Below, in pieces: positions 18,414 to 59,756 of a stretch of DNA of 62,724 nt. The position numbers and the translations under genes are program-made. Where the stretch lies: the IMG/VR virus record IMGVR_UViG_3300014323_000033, positions 1 through 62,724 of that record; one strand, given 5' to 3'. The DNA comes from a virus. Under the pieces are notes generated by a model. It was not told the DNA's origin. It saw nothing but the letters and a program-made list of their open reading frames with translations, and did no database searches. Within the stretch, counting starts at the first letter, position 1, and every line of letters begins with the position of its first letter.

Positions 18414-21296
18414 CTAAACGAATCCGAGCCGCCCGTGGAATTGGTGTTGCCCCCAGCGGCGGTACTTGTTGAAGGTCGCCTGCGTCACCTTGCTCGGCAC
18501 GATGACGAGGTCGTGGACGACGCCGTGGAACTGCAGCGCGTTCCAGGTCAAAAACACGATCAGGCGGTCGATCGTGCTGAGCGCCGAGCCCTGGGAGCCG
18601 GAGAATTCCTCCGTCTTGCCCGCCCACATGTTGGCCGTGCCGCCGCCGACGGCCCACCCGAAGCAATTGGGCACGTCGCACACGTCGTTAGTTCCGACCG
18701 CGGGCGATCCGGAAGTGTCGACCCGCATCTTGTCGGACAGCTCCATTGAGAAGAACGCGGTTTCGCTGAGCGCCCCGTTGACCCAATCGCACACGGGCGG
18801 GTAGGTACTGCGGCCGCCGTCAACGGTCGCGGTCAGCAAGACCGAATAACTCGGGTTCGTTCCGTTCGGCAGCCCGCGCAGCGTCGCGGTCGTAGCGGCG
18901 TTCCCGTCGCTCGACTGGAATTGGTAGAACTGTACGCCGGTGAACGCGCCGCCGACGGAGTTGCCACCCCACGCCGGCGCATTCGCGCCCGTCGGCTGGA
19001 CGAGGTGGCACGAGTTGCCCGAGCGGTCGGTGACGCTCTTGATCGCGTCGCCCACCTCGCACGCATCGCTGAGCGCGGTGTCCTCGAAAACGAAGCCGTC
19101 GAGGAAGGACCACCAGGCGACCGGCGAGAGCTGCGCCGGGGTCCACTCGGCGGTGCCGCTCGGCGCGCGCGTGATGATCTCGATCGCGAGCCGCATGTCG
19201 CGGTCGGGCGCGTAGGCCGTGAGGATCTCGCCGCGGTAGACGTCGATCGCCGCGCGCTTCGGCATTGGCAGAAACCCGAGCAGCGACCACGCCGCGGTAT
19301 TCGACAGCGTCGCATTCCACGTGTTGGCCAGGCCCGCGTCCTGGATCGCGTTCCAGTACGCCTGCTCCAGCGCGATCCCGATGCCAGCGGCCGCACTGCC
19401 CGCTGCGCCCTGCTGCAGGATCTCCCAACGCCCGTCCGGATCGGGGAAGGCGTCGATCGTCCCGCCGCTATCGAACGCCACGAAGGCTAGCGCCACGGTG
19501 CGCCCGTCGAAGCGGCCGGTCCTCGTCTTGCTGGTGGCGTCCGTTTTGAGCCACCCGGGCGAGTGGACCGCCGTGCCCGTGTTCGTGAAGTTGCGCAACA
19601 GGACCACGTTGTTGGCGATCGTGGTGGAGTCCCACTCAAACAGGTTGCCGTTGTCGTCGGTCGTCGGCAGCGCGTAGACGGCCGCGATGCAGCGGCCGGT
19701 CGTTCCCGTAAGCGTCACGGTGACGCTGCCGCCCTCGGTGCCCGTCGAAACGCGCCCATAGAGCTTGTGCACGAAGGTCCCGACCGTCGCGCTGTCGATG
19801 AGCGTCCAGCCCGCCGGATCGGAGATCGCGCCATTCTCCGCGGCGATGTCGAGCAGCAGGAAGGAGCCGACGCCGTTGCTGGGAATGGTCGGTGCGATCG
19901 ACACCGCGTTCAGAATGTTCGCGATGGTGCCCAGCGTCACCGTGAAGATCGGGCCCTCGGGCGCGAGATAGTAAGCGCGGTTCGAGCCGTCGCCGCCGGC
20001 GTTGTAGACCGTCTGCGCCCAGAGCTCGACGCCGCCCACGCGGAAGTGGACGTCGTAGTTCCCAGCGCCGTCCGTGTCGGTGCTCGACTCGACGACGAGC
20101 ATGAATTCGGTCAGCAGCGCGTCCTGTTGGATGACGAGGCCCGAGTTGCGTTCGTCGGTGCCCGTCGGCCAGGACCCGATCCCGGGGGACGCGACCAGGA
20201 AGCCCGGCACGCCGAATTCGGCCTCGCTCGACAGCGTCAGCACCGGCAGCGGCCCGGTCGCGCCCTGCGTGCCCTGGGTCCCCTGCGTGCCCTGAGGACC
20301 GGCGTTGCCGACCGCCCCCTGCGTGCCCTGGCTCCCCTGCGCGCCGGCGGCGCCCTGGGCCCCCTGCGCGCCGGCGTTGCCCTGCGCGCCTTGCGCTCCG
20401 GCGGCGCCCTGAGCTCCTTGGGCCCCTGCCGCTCCTTGGGCCCCTGCCGCCCCCTGGGCGCCTTGTGCGCCGCTCGCGCCCTGCGCACCCGCCGCACCCT
20501 GCGCGCCGCCTGCGCCCTGCGCTCCTGCGGCGCCCTGGGCCCCCTGCGCCCCTTGGGGCCCGTCGACGCCGTCCTCGCCCTGCGGTCCCTGCACGCCGCC
20601 CACGCCGTCGTCGCCCGGGTCGCCCGGGTCGCCGTCCACGCCGAAGGCACCGAAGAACCCGCCGGCGCCGAGCGGCCCCTGCGCGCCCTGAGCTCCTTGC
20701 GGGCCCGGGTCACCGACGCGCCCCTGCGTGCCCTGCGGCCCCTCGCCGAGGCCGCCACCGACGCCGCCCGCCGAGATCGCGCGAATGATGTCGTTGACGA
20801 CCTTGGCCCACGAATCGACCGAGTACTCGTCGCGCTCGCCCTTCACCATGGGTCGCAACACGAGGCCGTCGGGGCCGTCGACGGTGACGGCGATCACGCG
20901 CTCGACCACGAGCGCCGGATCGATCCGCGGCGGCGTGCCGGAGCTGCCGCCGTTCACCACGGAGCGCACGACCCACGCGGCCACGAAGTCGAGGTCGGCG
21001 GGCACGGTGCAGGAGATCGAGCCACGCGGGCCCGCCGTCGGCGTTACGAGCGGCCCGCTCGAGCTGCCCACGAGCTCGAGGTTCGGCACGTCGGGCTGCG
21101 ATTTCCCGGGCGGGTTCGCCGTGAGCACGCTCTCGTTCGTGCGCGCGCCGCCGGCGACCTGGAGCTCCCACGCGAACACGCCCTCGGGATCGAGCAGCGT
21201 GAAAGTGAGCACGTCGCCGGGCAGAGCCACGAAGCCGCGTTCGTCGCTCTCGACGTCTCGAGCTTCACAACGGATCTTGAAATCGGGGCGGGCCAC
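18414..21296 (-). CDS. Large collagen-like tail fibre / receptor-binding protein
   Basis: A 960-residue protein, GTG start. Residues 1-183 are an N-terminal adaptor related to that of the fibre at 41916-43295 (shared GFVA.PG..LTFTL.DP.GV..W.L and later WVVRSV/WIVRSV). Residues about 184-348 are collagen-like Gly-X-Y triplets, mainly GAQ, GAA and GTQ, expected to form a trimeric shaft. Residues 349-700 are beta-rich. About 705-945 contains SVTDRSGNSCHLVQP and a jelly-roll pattern like LamG/concanavalin domains, a likely glycan-binding tip. It follows the baseplate genes in the leftward operon. Confidence 0.82.
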   Translation of the reverse strand: MARPDFKIRCEARDVESDERGFVALPGDVLTFTLLDPEGVFAWELQVAGGARTNESVLTANPPGKSQPDVPNLELVGSSSGPLVTPTAGPRGSISCTVPADLDFVAAWVVRSVVNGGSSGTPPRIDPALVVERVIAVTVDGPDGLVLRPMVKGERDEYSVDSWAKVVNDIIRAISAGGVGGGLGEGPQGTQGRVGDPGPQGAQGAQGPLGAGGFFGAFGVDGDPGDPGDDGVGGVQGPQGEDGVDGPQGAQGAQGAAGAQGAGGAQGAAGAQGASGAQGAQGAAGAQGAAGAQGAQGAAGAQGAQGNAGAQGAQGAAGAQGSQGTQGAVGNAGPQGTQGTQGTQGATGPLPVLTLSSEAEFGVPGFLVASPGIGSWPTGTDERNSGLVIQQDALLTEFMLVVESSTDTDGAGNYDVHFRVGGVELWAQTVYNAGGDGSNRAYYLAPEGPIFTVTLGTIANILNAVSIAPTIPSNGVGSFLLLDIAAENGAISDPAGWTLIDSATVGTFVHKLYGRVSTGTEGGSVTVTLTGTTGRCIAAVYALPTTDDNGNLFEWDSTTIANNVVLLRNFTNTGTAVHSPGWLKTDATSKTRTGRFDGRTVALAFVAFDSGGTIDAFPDPDGRWEILQQGAAGSAAAGIGIALEQAYWNAIQDAGLANTWNATLSNTAAWSLLGFLPMPKRAAIDVYRGEILTAYAPDRDMRLAIEIITRAPSGTAEWTPAQLSPVAWWSFLDGFVFEDTALSDACEVGDAIKSVTDRSGNSCHLVQPTGANAPAWGGNSVGGAFTGVQFYQFQSSDGNAATTATLRGLPNGTNPSYSVLLTATVDGGRSTYPPVCDWVNGALSETAFFSMELSDKMRVDTSGSPAVGTNDVCDVPNCFGWAVGGGTANMWAGKTEEFSGSQGSALSTIDRLIVFLTWNALQFHGVVHDLVIVPSKVTQATFNKYRRWGQHQFHGRLGFV
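20253..20747 (-). repeat. Collagen-like triplet repeat tract (tail fibre)
   Basis: A tract of 9-bp periodicity encoding about 165 residues of Gly-X-Y. The DNA is highly repetitive (GCCCCTGC / GCGCCCTG units), so slippage and recombination with the similar tract at 42294-42782 are likely. It is coding repeat, not a CRISPR array. Confidence 0.85.
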
Positions 21297-41915: not shown

Positions 41916-43295
41916 CTACGCGTACTTGATGCTCGCCCAAACCTCATGGGTCGGGCCGATCCCGCTGAAATTCGTTTTGACCGCGATCTTGTCCCCGCGC
42001 GAGACCGCGACCGTGTGGGTGTCGTCTGCGAGCGCGAGCTCGAACCCGGTGAACGAAACGGTGAGCGCCGTTGCGCTGCCGTTCTTGTAGACCGTGAAGG
42101 TCGGCCCGGAGTCGAGGCCGCTCTCGGCGCTCACATAGAAGTTCTTGAGCGTGCCGTCGCGGTTGAGCACCACCTGCCCGTCGGCCTCGGCGACGAAGGG
42201 CTGGCCCGCCGGCGATCCCACGTTGAAAAAGTCCTGGCCGGTGCCGGTCGCTCCGGCATCGACGCCGAAGTAAAGGCCGGGCTCGACGTTGCTGCCGGTG
42301 GGCCCCTGCGTGCCTTGCGTGCCTTGCGTGCCCTGCGTGCCTTGGGCGCCCTGGACGCCTTGGCTGCCCTGCGCGCCTTGAGCACCTTGGGCGCCGGCCG
42401 CACCCTGAGCACCTTGAGCACCCGCTGCGCCCTGAGCTCCTTGCGCGCCGGCGTTGCCTTGAGCACCCGCTGCGCCCTGCGCGCCTTGAGCGCCCGCTGC
42501 ACCTTGGGCACCCGGCGCGCCCTGCGCACCCGCCGCGCCCTGGGCTCCTTGCGCACCCGCCGCACCCTGAGCGCCGGCCGCACCTTGCACGCCCTGCGCG
42601 CCGGCAGCGCCGTCGTCGCCCTGCGGCCCGTCGATCCCGTCGTCGCCCTGCACGCCCTGCGGCCCTTGAACGCCGGGGTCACCCTGCGCGCCCTGCGGCC
42701 CGCCCGTGCCCTGCGCGCCTTGGTTCCCCTGGGCGCCGGCGGCACCTTGCGCACCCTGCGGCCCTTGCGGTCCCTGCGCGCCGCCGCCCCCGCCGCCGGC
42801 CTGCAGAATGCGCAGCGCCTTGTTGATGGCCTCCGCCCACGTGAGCGACGAGAACTGCTTGAGCTCGGTCGGCACCATGAGGCGCAGGCCCGAGCCGTTC
42901 GCGTACACGACCATGCGCTCGAAAATCTTCGTCGGGTCCGGGCGGCCGAGCGCGTCGGTGCCGGAGTCGATCACGCTGCGCACGATCCACGAATGCAGCT
43001 CGTCGCCGGTGTCGGGGAACGCACACGTGATCTCGCCGGCGGGCGAGCCGGGCGAGCGCACGTACTGCCCGGTGGTGGCGCCCACGAGATCGAGCACGGG
43101 CGCGCCGTCGGAGCACTCCGGAGGGTTGACCAGAATGTCGGCGCCAGGCGTGTACGCGCTCGGGTCGAAGACGCGCAGGCGCCAGGTCTTCACGCCGTCC
43201 GGATCGCGCAGCGTGAACGTGAGCGTCGCGCCAGGCGTGGCGACGAAGCCCGCGTCCTCGCCGTCGTCGTTGATGTCGAACCGAGGGCTGGTCAC
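41916..43295 (-). CDS. Collagen-like fibre encoded within the head genes
   Basis: A 459-residue protein, GTG start. Residues 1-170 are an adaptor domain related to the first 183 of the fibre at 18414-21296. Residues about 172-334 are Gly-X-Y collagen-like triplets (GAQ, GAA, then GTQGTQGTQG). Residues 335-459 are a beta-rich tip with DGQVVLNRDGTLKNFYVSAESG and FTVYKNGSATALTVSFTGFELAL, like a jelly-roll head. It lies between the gpF-like gene and the protease gene, which suggests a head fibre rather than a tail fibre. Confidence 0.75.
   Translation of the reverse strand: MTSPRFDINDDGEDAGFVATPGATLTFTLRDPDGVKTWRLRVFDPSAYTPGADILVNPPECSDGAPVLDLVGATTGQYVRSPGSPAGEITCAFPDTGDELHSWIVRSVIDSGTDALGRPDPTKIFERMVVYANGSGLRLMVPTELKQFSSLTWAEAINKALRILQAGGGGGGAQGPQGPQGAQGAAGAQGNQGAQGTGGPQGAQGDPGVQGPQGVQGDDGIDGPQGDDGAAGAQGVQGAAGAQGAAGAQGAQGAAGAQGAPGAQGAAGAQGAQGAAGAQGNAGAQGAQGAAGAQGAQGAAGAQGAQGAQGSQGVQGAQGTQGTQGTQGTQGPTGSNVEPGLYFGVDAGATGTGQDFFNVGSPAGQPFVAEADGQVVLNRDGTLKNFYVSAESGLDSGPTFTVYKNGSATALTVSFTGFELALADDTHTVAVSRGDKIAVKTNFSGIGPTHEVWASIKYA
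42294..42782 (-). repeat. Collagen-like triplet repeat tract (head-region fibre)
   Basis: Encodes about 163 residues of Gly-X-Y with 9-bp periodicity, similar in triplet choice to the tract at 20253-20747, including the GTQ run at the C-terminal end. High similarity between two tracts 21.5 kb apart on the same strand makes recombination between them possible. Confidence 0.85.
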
Positions 43296-58407: not shown

Positions 58408-58824
58408 ATGCCCCAGCAATCAAGCCCGGTTCTCGTGCCGGTCGATCTCCTTCGGCTTTTTTTCGGCGCTGAACGAGTGTCCGGCGTGATCGCACGCCTC
58501 ACCGTGAGCTGGTTCGTGCTCACGGGCGGTTGGGAAGCCGACTTTTCGGACGAGCGCGCGAACCTGATCGCCGTCCGGATGGCCTCGTGGATCTGGCCGC
58601 CGCAGCTCTGGCGCGTGGAAGGCCGGATCCCGCCCACCACGACGGCCGTGCTCCTCGAGCTGCAGGGCCTCGGGCTCGTGAAGCTCGGCGAACGCATGGG
58701 CGGCTCGATCCCGGTGCAGGTGCTCAAGCTCTACGGCCTGCCCGACCGGATCCTCGCCGAGCTCGACGCCCTGATCGCCAAACGCCACGCCGGCAGCGCC
58801 GGCGCCTCGGAGGACGCCGAATGA
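58408..58824 (+). CDS. Hypothetical protein in replication operon (138 aa)
   Basis: First gene after the hairpin array. Residues about 40-80 have several Trp (ASWIWPPQLWRVEGRIPPTTTAVLLELQGLGLVKL), and this part may form a winged helix. The C-terminus is helical. It overlaps the initiator gene by ATGA, so it may be co-translated with it. Not recognised. Confidence 0.62.
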   Translation: MPQQSSPVLVPVDLLRLFFGAERVSGVIARLTVSWFVLTGGWEADFSDERANLIAVRMASWIWPPQLWRVEGRIPPTTTAVLLELQGLGLVKLGERMGGSIPVQVLKLYGLPDRILAELDALIAKRHAGSAGASEDAE

Positions 58825-59756
58825 CCTCACACGAGCTAGCCGACCTGCTCGAGGCCCTCGCCGCGCGCCTGCGCCTCGAGCCCCCGCGCACGAGCGCCCA
58901 CGAGCGCCGGTTCGAGATCGACCCGGGCCTCACTTTCGACGTGCCGAACGCGGCCACCCTGCGCCAAAGGAGGCGCCGCGCAGGCGTGACGGTTGGCGTG
59001 ACATCTGGCGTGACATCGCCACCAAATGTCACGCCTCCCGAACCGCCTAAGGCCGGCCCGCTCGAGCCGCCGCTCGAGCCCTCAACCCCCGCGCGCGCCG
59101 TCCGGTTAGATCCTTCCGAGTCTCCGGAATCAGAGAAGAAATCCGGACATTCTTCTGATCTCCGGATCCAAAGACCTGACAGCGAGCCCGCGCGATCGAG
59201 CCTCCCAAATGTGCCCGTCGAGGGCGTGACACCGCGCCGATCTGTCACGCCTCTCCGTGGGCGTGACACCGAGGCGTTCGCCATGGACGCCGACTGGCCC
59301 CTGCCCGACGAGCTCGTGGCCTCCCTCGGGATCGCGCCGGGCATCCCGGCACGCGCTGCTCGCTGGATCCTCCGGCAGGCGACCGGCTACTACGCCCAGG
59401 ACGCCGCCGACCTCCGTGCCGCGCCCGTGTGGCGCAAGGCCCTGCACGTTTGGGCGTGCAAGGTTTGGAGCGACCCCAAGAAGCGCGCCGAGGCCATGGC
59501 CGCGAGCGCCCCCTCGCAGCAGGTCGGCGGGCACCACGAGGGGCCGGTCGAGCGCATCGACCCGCCGAAGGAGTGGACCGAGGCCGTGCGCCGCCCGGTC
59601 GAGCCGGCGCCCAAGGAGGCGTTCGAGCTCCTCGCCCGCCTGGACGCGGCGCGCGTTCGGGACGGTCTGCCCCCCATCGCGAGCGCCGATCGGCCCGCTC
59701 CGGGCAGCGTGGCGCGGCCGCGGGGGCAAAACGGCGGGGGCGGCGGCCATGGTTGA
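58821..59756 (+). CDS. Probable replication initiator with embedded origin
   Basis: A 311-residue protein. The N-terminal helix region (residues 1-55) leads into a low-complexity linker (about 55-150) encoded by repeated GGCGTGACA units. Residues about 155-225 form the folded part (WPLPDELVASLGIAPGIPARAARWILRQATGYYAQD..., WRKALHVWACKVWSDPKKR). It is followed by a small winged-helix gene and a DnaB-like helicase, as lambda O is followed by P. The iterons in its own gene strongly suggest it binds them. The fold is not certain. Confidence 0.62.
   Translation: MTSHELADLLEALAARLRLEPPRTSAHERRFEIDPGLTFDVPNAATLRQRRRRAGVTVGVTSGVTSPPNVTPPEPPKAGPLEPPLEPSTPARAVRLDPSESPESEKKSGHSSDLRIQRPDSEPARSSLPNVPVEGVTPRRSVTPLRGRDTEAFAMDADWPLPDELVASLGIAPGIPARAARWILRQATGYYAQDAADLRAAPVWRKALHVWACKVWSDPKKRAEAMAASAPSQQVGGHHEGPVERIDPPKEWTEAVRRPVEPAPKEAFELLARLDAARVRDGLPPIASADRPAPGSVARPRGQNGGGGGHG
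58983..59267 (+). other. Candidate replication origin: iterons flanking a dyad
   Basis: GGCGTGAC occurs as direct copies at 58983, 58995, 59007, 59223 and 59260, and inverted (GTCACGCC) at 59028 and 59244; six of the seven extend to GGCGTGACA. The first three are spaced exactly 12 bp. Between the two clusters is the most AT-rich stretch of the area (59101-59180), with TCCGGA at 59123, 59142 and 59161 (19-bp steps). These are joined by ATCAGAGAAGAA and TTCTTCTGAT, a 44-bp imperfect palindrome. The layout parallels lambda-type origins inside the initiator gene. Confidence 0.68.

Follow-up and report, generated by a model that had tools for sequence, protein, structure and literature searches.

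The window analysed here is the whole of virus record IMGVR_UViG_3300014323_000033 (62,724 bp), a complete phage genome of 62.7 kb with a 123-bp terminal direct repeat. Four overlapping genes, P0002, P0001, P0004 and P0003, follow one another on the + strand. P0001 (58821–59756, + strand) encodes a protein of 311 aa and holds an entire array of short repeats. It is an orphan with no match in Pfam, PHROG, named phages or a PDB sequence search, its AF2 model is unusable, and no close relatives of P0001 or P0003 were found in IMG/VR. In the absence of a detectable relative, its assignment as an initiator, which we consider likely, rests on its position before a DnaB-like helicase gene, an arginine-rich motif and the array itself. 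Directly upstream, P0002 (58408–58824, + strand) encodes a second orphan of 138 aa, whose stop codon overlaps the start codon of P0001 (ATGA). P0002 has no Pfam, PHROG or PDB match, no relatives were found among named phages, and its AF2 model is too poor for use (pLDDT 42); it is possibly a partner of the initiator.

P0004 (59749–59940, + strand), which overlaps both P0001 and P0003, encodes a probable winged-helix protein of 63 aa, whose match to HTH_24 is weak and below the cut-off (E = 0.08). This tiny gene, wedged between P0001 and the helicase gene, could conceivably encode a DNA-binding partner or a helicase loader. P0003 (59937–61289, + strand) encodes the DnaB-like replicative helicase (PF03796, 5e-20; phrog_19, 3.4e-33), and its match to phrog_239 is confined to the helicase part. 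The claim of an earlier note, made from the sequence alone, that a DnaB-like helicase comes next after the initiator gene holds only in part, as the 63-aa gene intervenes. Beyond P0003, across the record ends, lie genes for a RecT-like annealing protein and an SbcC-like protein, and one whose match to terminase is weak.

Seven copies of GGCGTGAC lie within positions 58983–59268 of P0001, six of them as GGCGTGACA and one as GGCGTGACG. The first cluster consists of iteron 1 (GGCGTGACG, 58983–58991, + strand), iterons 2 and 3 (GGCGTGACA, 58995–59003 and 59007–59015, both + strand) and the inverted iteron 4 (GGCGTGACA, 59027–59035, − strand). The second comprises iteron 5 (GGCGTGACA, 59223–59231, + strand), the inverted iteron 6 (GGCGTGACA, 59243–59251, − strand) and iteron 7 (GGCGTGACA, 59260–59268, + strand). 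The first three copies start at exact 12-bp steps, and each cluster has one inverted copy. The six GGCGTGACA copies, which span 274 bp (58995–59268), are the only exact copies of this 9-mer in the entire genome. GC-rich repeats of 9, 18 and 27 bp were also observed at 20263–20555 and 42307–42778; since the first set lies inside a collagen-like tail fibre gene (18414–21296, − strand), these are probably coding.

As a null model for the array, we generated 20,000 synonymous recodings of the gene (58821–59756) with the genome's own codon usage. The recoded genes contain 0.14 copies on average and never more than 3, compared with the 6 observed. The iteron copies use ACA, which is rarer than any other Thr codon and accounts for only 24 of 735, and iteron 7 lies in a different reading frame from the other direct copies, encoding GRDT rather than GVT. 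Taken together, these three observations mean that the repeats are constrained as DNA, and the iteron words are kept at this level and not as a by-product of the protein.

Between the two clusters lies an AT-rich stretch (59106–59181, no strand assigned), which we propose as the unwinding element. With 52.6% AT in a genome of 29% AT, it ranks first among all 76-bp windows, and TCCGGA occurs in it three times, at 59123, 59142 and 59161, that is, at 19-bp steps. A 44-bp dyad folds no better than shuffled sequence (z = −1.34; 15 of 200 shuffles as good), and we rejected it as a structural element. The GC skew has no turning point at 59.1 kb, with cumulative extremes at 21.6 and 55.6 kb, and the AT-skew minimum is at 55.1 kb; neither skew is informative on the position of the origin. 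Most of what the earlier note had claimed for this region held in our scan, namely the seven copies in two clusters, the 12-bp steps, the single inverted copy per cluster, the spacing of TCCGGA and the local AT-rich stretch, which is in fact the maximum of the genome. The near-palindrome that it had listed is weaker than claimed and carries no weight. Of the checks it had named, the density of the 9-mer elsewhere in the genome came out in favour of the origin reading, and GC skew was uninformative.

An arginine-rich motif, N-AATLRQRRRR (residues 43–53; 58947–58979, + strand), ends 3 bases upstream of iteron 1. It belongs to what we term the Q class and is the proposed iteron-reading helix; missed by the earlier note, it gives the strongest hint of what recognises the array. 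The consensus AxxR[QK]RxxR is found just before the array in many host genes, and MAFFT, run unguided, aligned the motif in seven otherwise dissimilar hosts including P0001. Using a profile from which the tested sequence was left out, we obtained at least 14 bits at 16 of 81 array loci, compared with 0.43% of 2,999 random positions. The P0001 motif scores 18.0 bits in this PSSM, the top score in its genome, and none of the 2,999 background positions scores as high. The profile was seeded with hosts in which the motif had already been seen (P0001 was never a seed), so that the share of 16/81 is descriptive and should not be taken as a blind estimate. A stricter profile, trained on DUF1376 motifs only, reaches at least 12 bits at 9 of 82 non-DUF1376 loci, compared with 1.1% of background, and gives P0001 just 6.8 bits. 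That the iterons are read by the arginine motif is likely but unproven; it is inferred without binding data.

Arrays of the same type are present in other phages. A search for GGCGTGACA-N3-GGCGTGACA yielded 20 viral loci, and in several of these the array uses another reading frame. At least 120 viral stretches contain GCGTGACA three times with no gap longer than 30 bases, compared with 40 for the reversed pattern. Once near-copies and simple tandem repeats are taken out, 71 dispersed GCGTGACA arrays remain, compared with 13 for the reversed pattern. The array word is found in all frames and between genes. The hosts of GCGTGACA arrays carry DUF1376 in 12 of 39 cases and Prim-Pol, DnaB_2, Phage_rep_org_N and RP-C in one case each, and their PHROG names include replication initiation O-like, replisome organizer, DnaD-like loader and primosomal protein. 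Among the neighbours of the arrays are genes for a primase/helicase, a DnaB-like helicase and a P-like loader, and in named phages DUF1376 genes lie directly upstream of replicative helicases. Eight named phages with DUF1376 genes fit the motif classes, yet supply no named example, with neither the RQ motif (0/8) nor a CGTGAC array (0/8). The earlier note had proposed a comparison of relatives, for which P0001 yielded no close relative; arrays of the same type do lie at the replication modules of other phages, which favours the origin reading.

These loci were picked by the iteron word, and a control word also yields some arrays near helicases. Other iteron types therefore exist, and the frequency of the GCGTGACA type is undetermined. 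The arginine motif accompanies only about a third of the GCGTGACA arrays; many of those without it are intergenic, beside primase-helicases, and there we infer that another reader must act. We observed GCGTGACA arrays without the motif, often in 9–10-bp steps, between or beside genes near primase-helicases at L027, L073, L102, L116, L118, L125, L135 and L141, where a different reader would have to recognise nearly the same word. Arrays in bacterial genomes were considered as origins and rejected: 86 of 116 are tandem, and because most are tandem or chromosomal repeats, GGCGTGACA repeats in chromosomes are not origins by themselves. Repeats of CTACTCGGCGTGACA on several bacterial MAG contigs (L300, L330, L366) are apparently chromosomal and unrelated to phage origins.

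To relate motif to iteron, we gathered 62 non-redundant DUF1376 genes by protein similarity. In this set, RQxRxR occurs with CGTGAC in 18 of 24 genes and RxKRHR with CGTT[GT]C in 16 of 18, and GGRP occurs with neither (19 of 19). Among pairs with at least 75% domain identity, the iteron class is shared by 97 of 114 pairs of the same motif class, compared with none of 88 pairs of different class. DUF1376 domains that are 88–95% identical carry different iterons together with different motifs; the domains of L193 and L223 are 94% identical, whereas both motif and iteron differ. As separate observations, the GGRPKK-type genes (L223, L224, L229, L235, L251 and others) lack a CGT-type iteron and contain repeated AGTCTGG/GACTCCA-like words, and CCAGACACC-type repeats, which encode QTPDT, recur across motif classes.

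In the phrog_2509 family, R[QK]xxxR is paired with CGTGAC and RVxKxR with CGTTAC, while GCGGAC is the partner of most RKRxxR motifs, the exception being two RKR-class hosts that keep the CGTGAC of their N-terminal relatives and not the iteron of their motif class. For an out-of-sample test, we chose arrays by GCGTTACA, in which one base is changed from GCGTGACA. These show the V class, RV[RK][RK]xR, in 29 of 78 cases and the Q class, R[QK]xxxR, in 2 of 78, whereas the GCGTGACA arrays show the V class in 4 of 85 and the Q class in 27 of 85 (Fisher p = 7e-11; background approximately 5% per class). Since related members are not independent events, this p-value suggests more independent cases than there are, and counts by family are the safer figure. 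Four N-terminal families hold both pairings, with 32 of 33 members concordant. The by-family pairs are V/GTTAC (17), Q/GTGAC (13), Q/GTTAC (1) and V/GTGAC (3); on inspection, the 3 V/GTGAC cases (L051, L061 and L086) appear to be artefacts of the regex or to be read in a wrong frame. Across families of phage initiators, motif and iteron switch class in step, and P0001, a Q-class protein with GGCGTGACA iterons starting three bases past its motif, matches the predicted pattern. The motif is co-inherited with the remaining linker and the C-terminus and is thus not separated from other C-terminal residues; that the covarying loci (L186–L265, L394–L473 and L474–L593) reflect a residue–base code is a possibility.

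In lambda O/ori-lambda and in the O genes of Stx phages, the initiator gene is known to carry iterons and an AT-rich tract at its middle (PMC7466680). The P0001 locus shares with lambda the in-gene iterons, the AT-rich tract and a helicase-recruiting gene next to them. The lambda iterons, however, have a greater length and are found to one side of the AT tract, whereas those of P0001 are 8–9 bp long and form two flanking clusters with inverted copies; and the P0001 phage encodes its own DnaB-like helicase where lambda has the P loader. We found no similarity of P0001 to the lambda O family or O-like initiators in PHROG or Pfam. The locus nonetheless shows three of the features that define a lambda-type in-gene origin: an array unique in the genome lies inside a replication gene (whose role is inferred from position and motif), an AT-rich element adjoins the iterons (its unwinding is inferred) and a DnaB-like helicase gene is found downstream, with the 63-aa gene between. 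The locus is of the lambda O/ori type by layout and not by sequence. This layout supports the earlier note's reading of lambda O/ori logic with unrelated sequence, with origin function itself inferred.

A parallel to the motif is provided by phage replication genes with a DUF1376 domain (PF07120; PHROG 'primosomal protein'), which carry CGTGAC iterons in the gene right after RQRRxR and often lie upstream of a replicative helicase. P0001 has its motif in frame just before the array and so meets the criterion of a Q-class motif plus GCGTGACA cassette, but it has no DUF1376 domain in a Pfam search, and its N-terminus is only 42 aa long and unrelated in sequence. Origins of the satellite phage P4 type have short repeated octamers near a primase-helicase, and many of the surveyed GCGTGACA arrays adjoin phrog_239 genes; the P0001 array, in contrast, has no P4-type primase-helicase there, its neighbour being DnaB-like. 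The basic regions of eukaryotic bZIP and bHLH proteins likewise combine an arginine-rich helix with a TGAC-like half-site. DUF1376 motifs give sub-threshold HLH and BES1_N matches (E 0.005–1.5), no bZIP or HLH Pfam model matches above its curated cut-off, P0001 has no such match, and there is no zipper. This likeness is a resemblance only and at most a possible lead.

We consider it likely that the array is the phage replication origin, located inside its own initiator gene and read by P0001 through the arginine motif, with both origin function and binding inferred. Origin function taken alone is also likely, in the absence of replication data. In the proposed mechanism, P0001, possibly with P0002 or P0004, whose genes overlap its own, would bind the seven iterons, and the arginine-rich helix AATLRQRRRR is inferred to read GCGTGACA. 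Filling of both clusters would strain the intervening AT-rich stretch (59106–59181) until it opens, and the opened complex would then recruit the phage's own DnaB-like helicase. Iteron binding, unwinding and helicase loading are all inferred.

The most serious alternative accepts the array as the origin and assigns its reading to a conventional winged-helix domain (in P0002, P0004 or the N-terminus of P0001), with the arginine motif giving only non-specific DNA affinity. Lambda-type initiators use their N-terminal domain for iteron binding, P0004 is winged-helix-like at the weak level given above, and the two RKR-class hosts keep the iteron of their relatives. Against it, nearly identical DUF1376 domains (88–95%) occur with different iterons and motifs, and unrelated N-terminal families have a common iteron when they share a motif class. 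We regard this alternative as unlikely.

The array might instead be an operator or a parS-like partition site for a regulator and no origin at all, as short-spaced direct and inverted copies are also typical of such sites. This is very unlikely: the same arrays lie in or beside initiators, primases and replicative helicases of many other contigs, the AT peak of the genome falls between the clusters, and the array lies within a coding gene, with no promoter-like site nearby (our search misses other promoter types). It might also be argued that the DNA repeats merely follow from a need of the protein for a GVT-rich linker, since GVT is encoded in a single frame by four of the five direct copies, and VT by the inverted ones. 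The recoding limit, the rare ACA codons, the out-of-frame seventh copy and the occurrence of the word in all frames and between genes of other phages all but exclude this.

Returning to an origin read through the arginine motif, a bolder reading is that one short arginine-rich helix serves for iteron recognition in many unrelated phage initiators, with its own binding sites following it directly within the gene. The motif together with its iterons would then be a portable origin cassette, able to pass from one initiator backbone to another, with a readable residue–base code. We lean towards this reading by a narrow margin; it is inferred, and there are no binding data. As part of it, we propose the code R[QK]xxxR/GCGTGACA, RV[RK][RK]xR/GCGTTACA, R[LTM]KRHR/CGTT[GT]C and, with exceptions, ERKRxxR/TGCGGAC. 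The in-gene origin layout is already known from lambda, and the motif-plus-iteron cassette is newly described here; we found no reports on DUF1376 initiators or the GCGTGACA-type iteron in the open-access literature searched, which is no proof of novelty.

If the bolder reading is true, a short arginine-rich helix with a residue–base code, found in viruses of bacteria, would represent a new DNA-recognition module. Origin and specificity would be readable from sequence in many phages, even where, as for P0001, no relative of the initiator is known. Changes of origin specificity would be explained as well: phages would swap a segment that contains both the reader and its sites, and the pair would stay in step.
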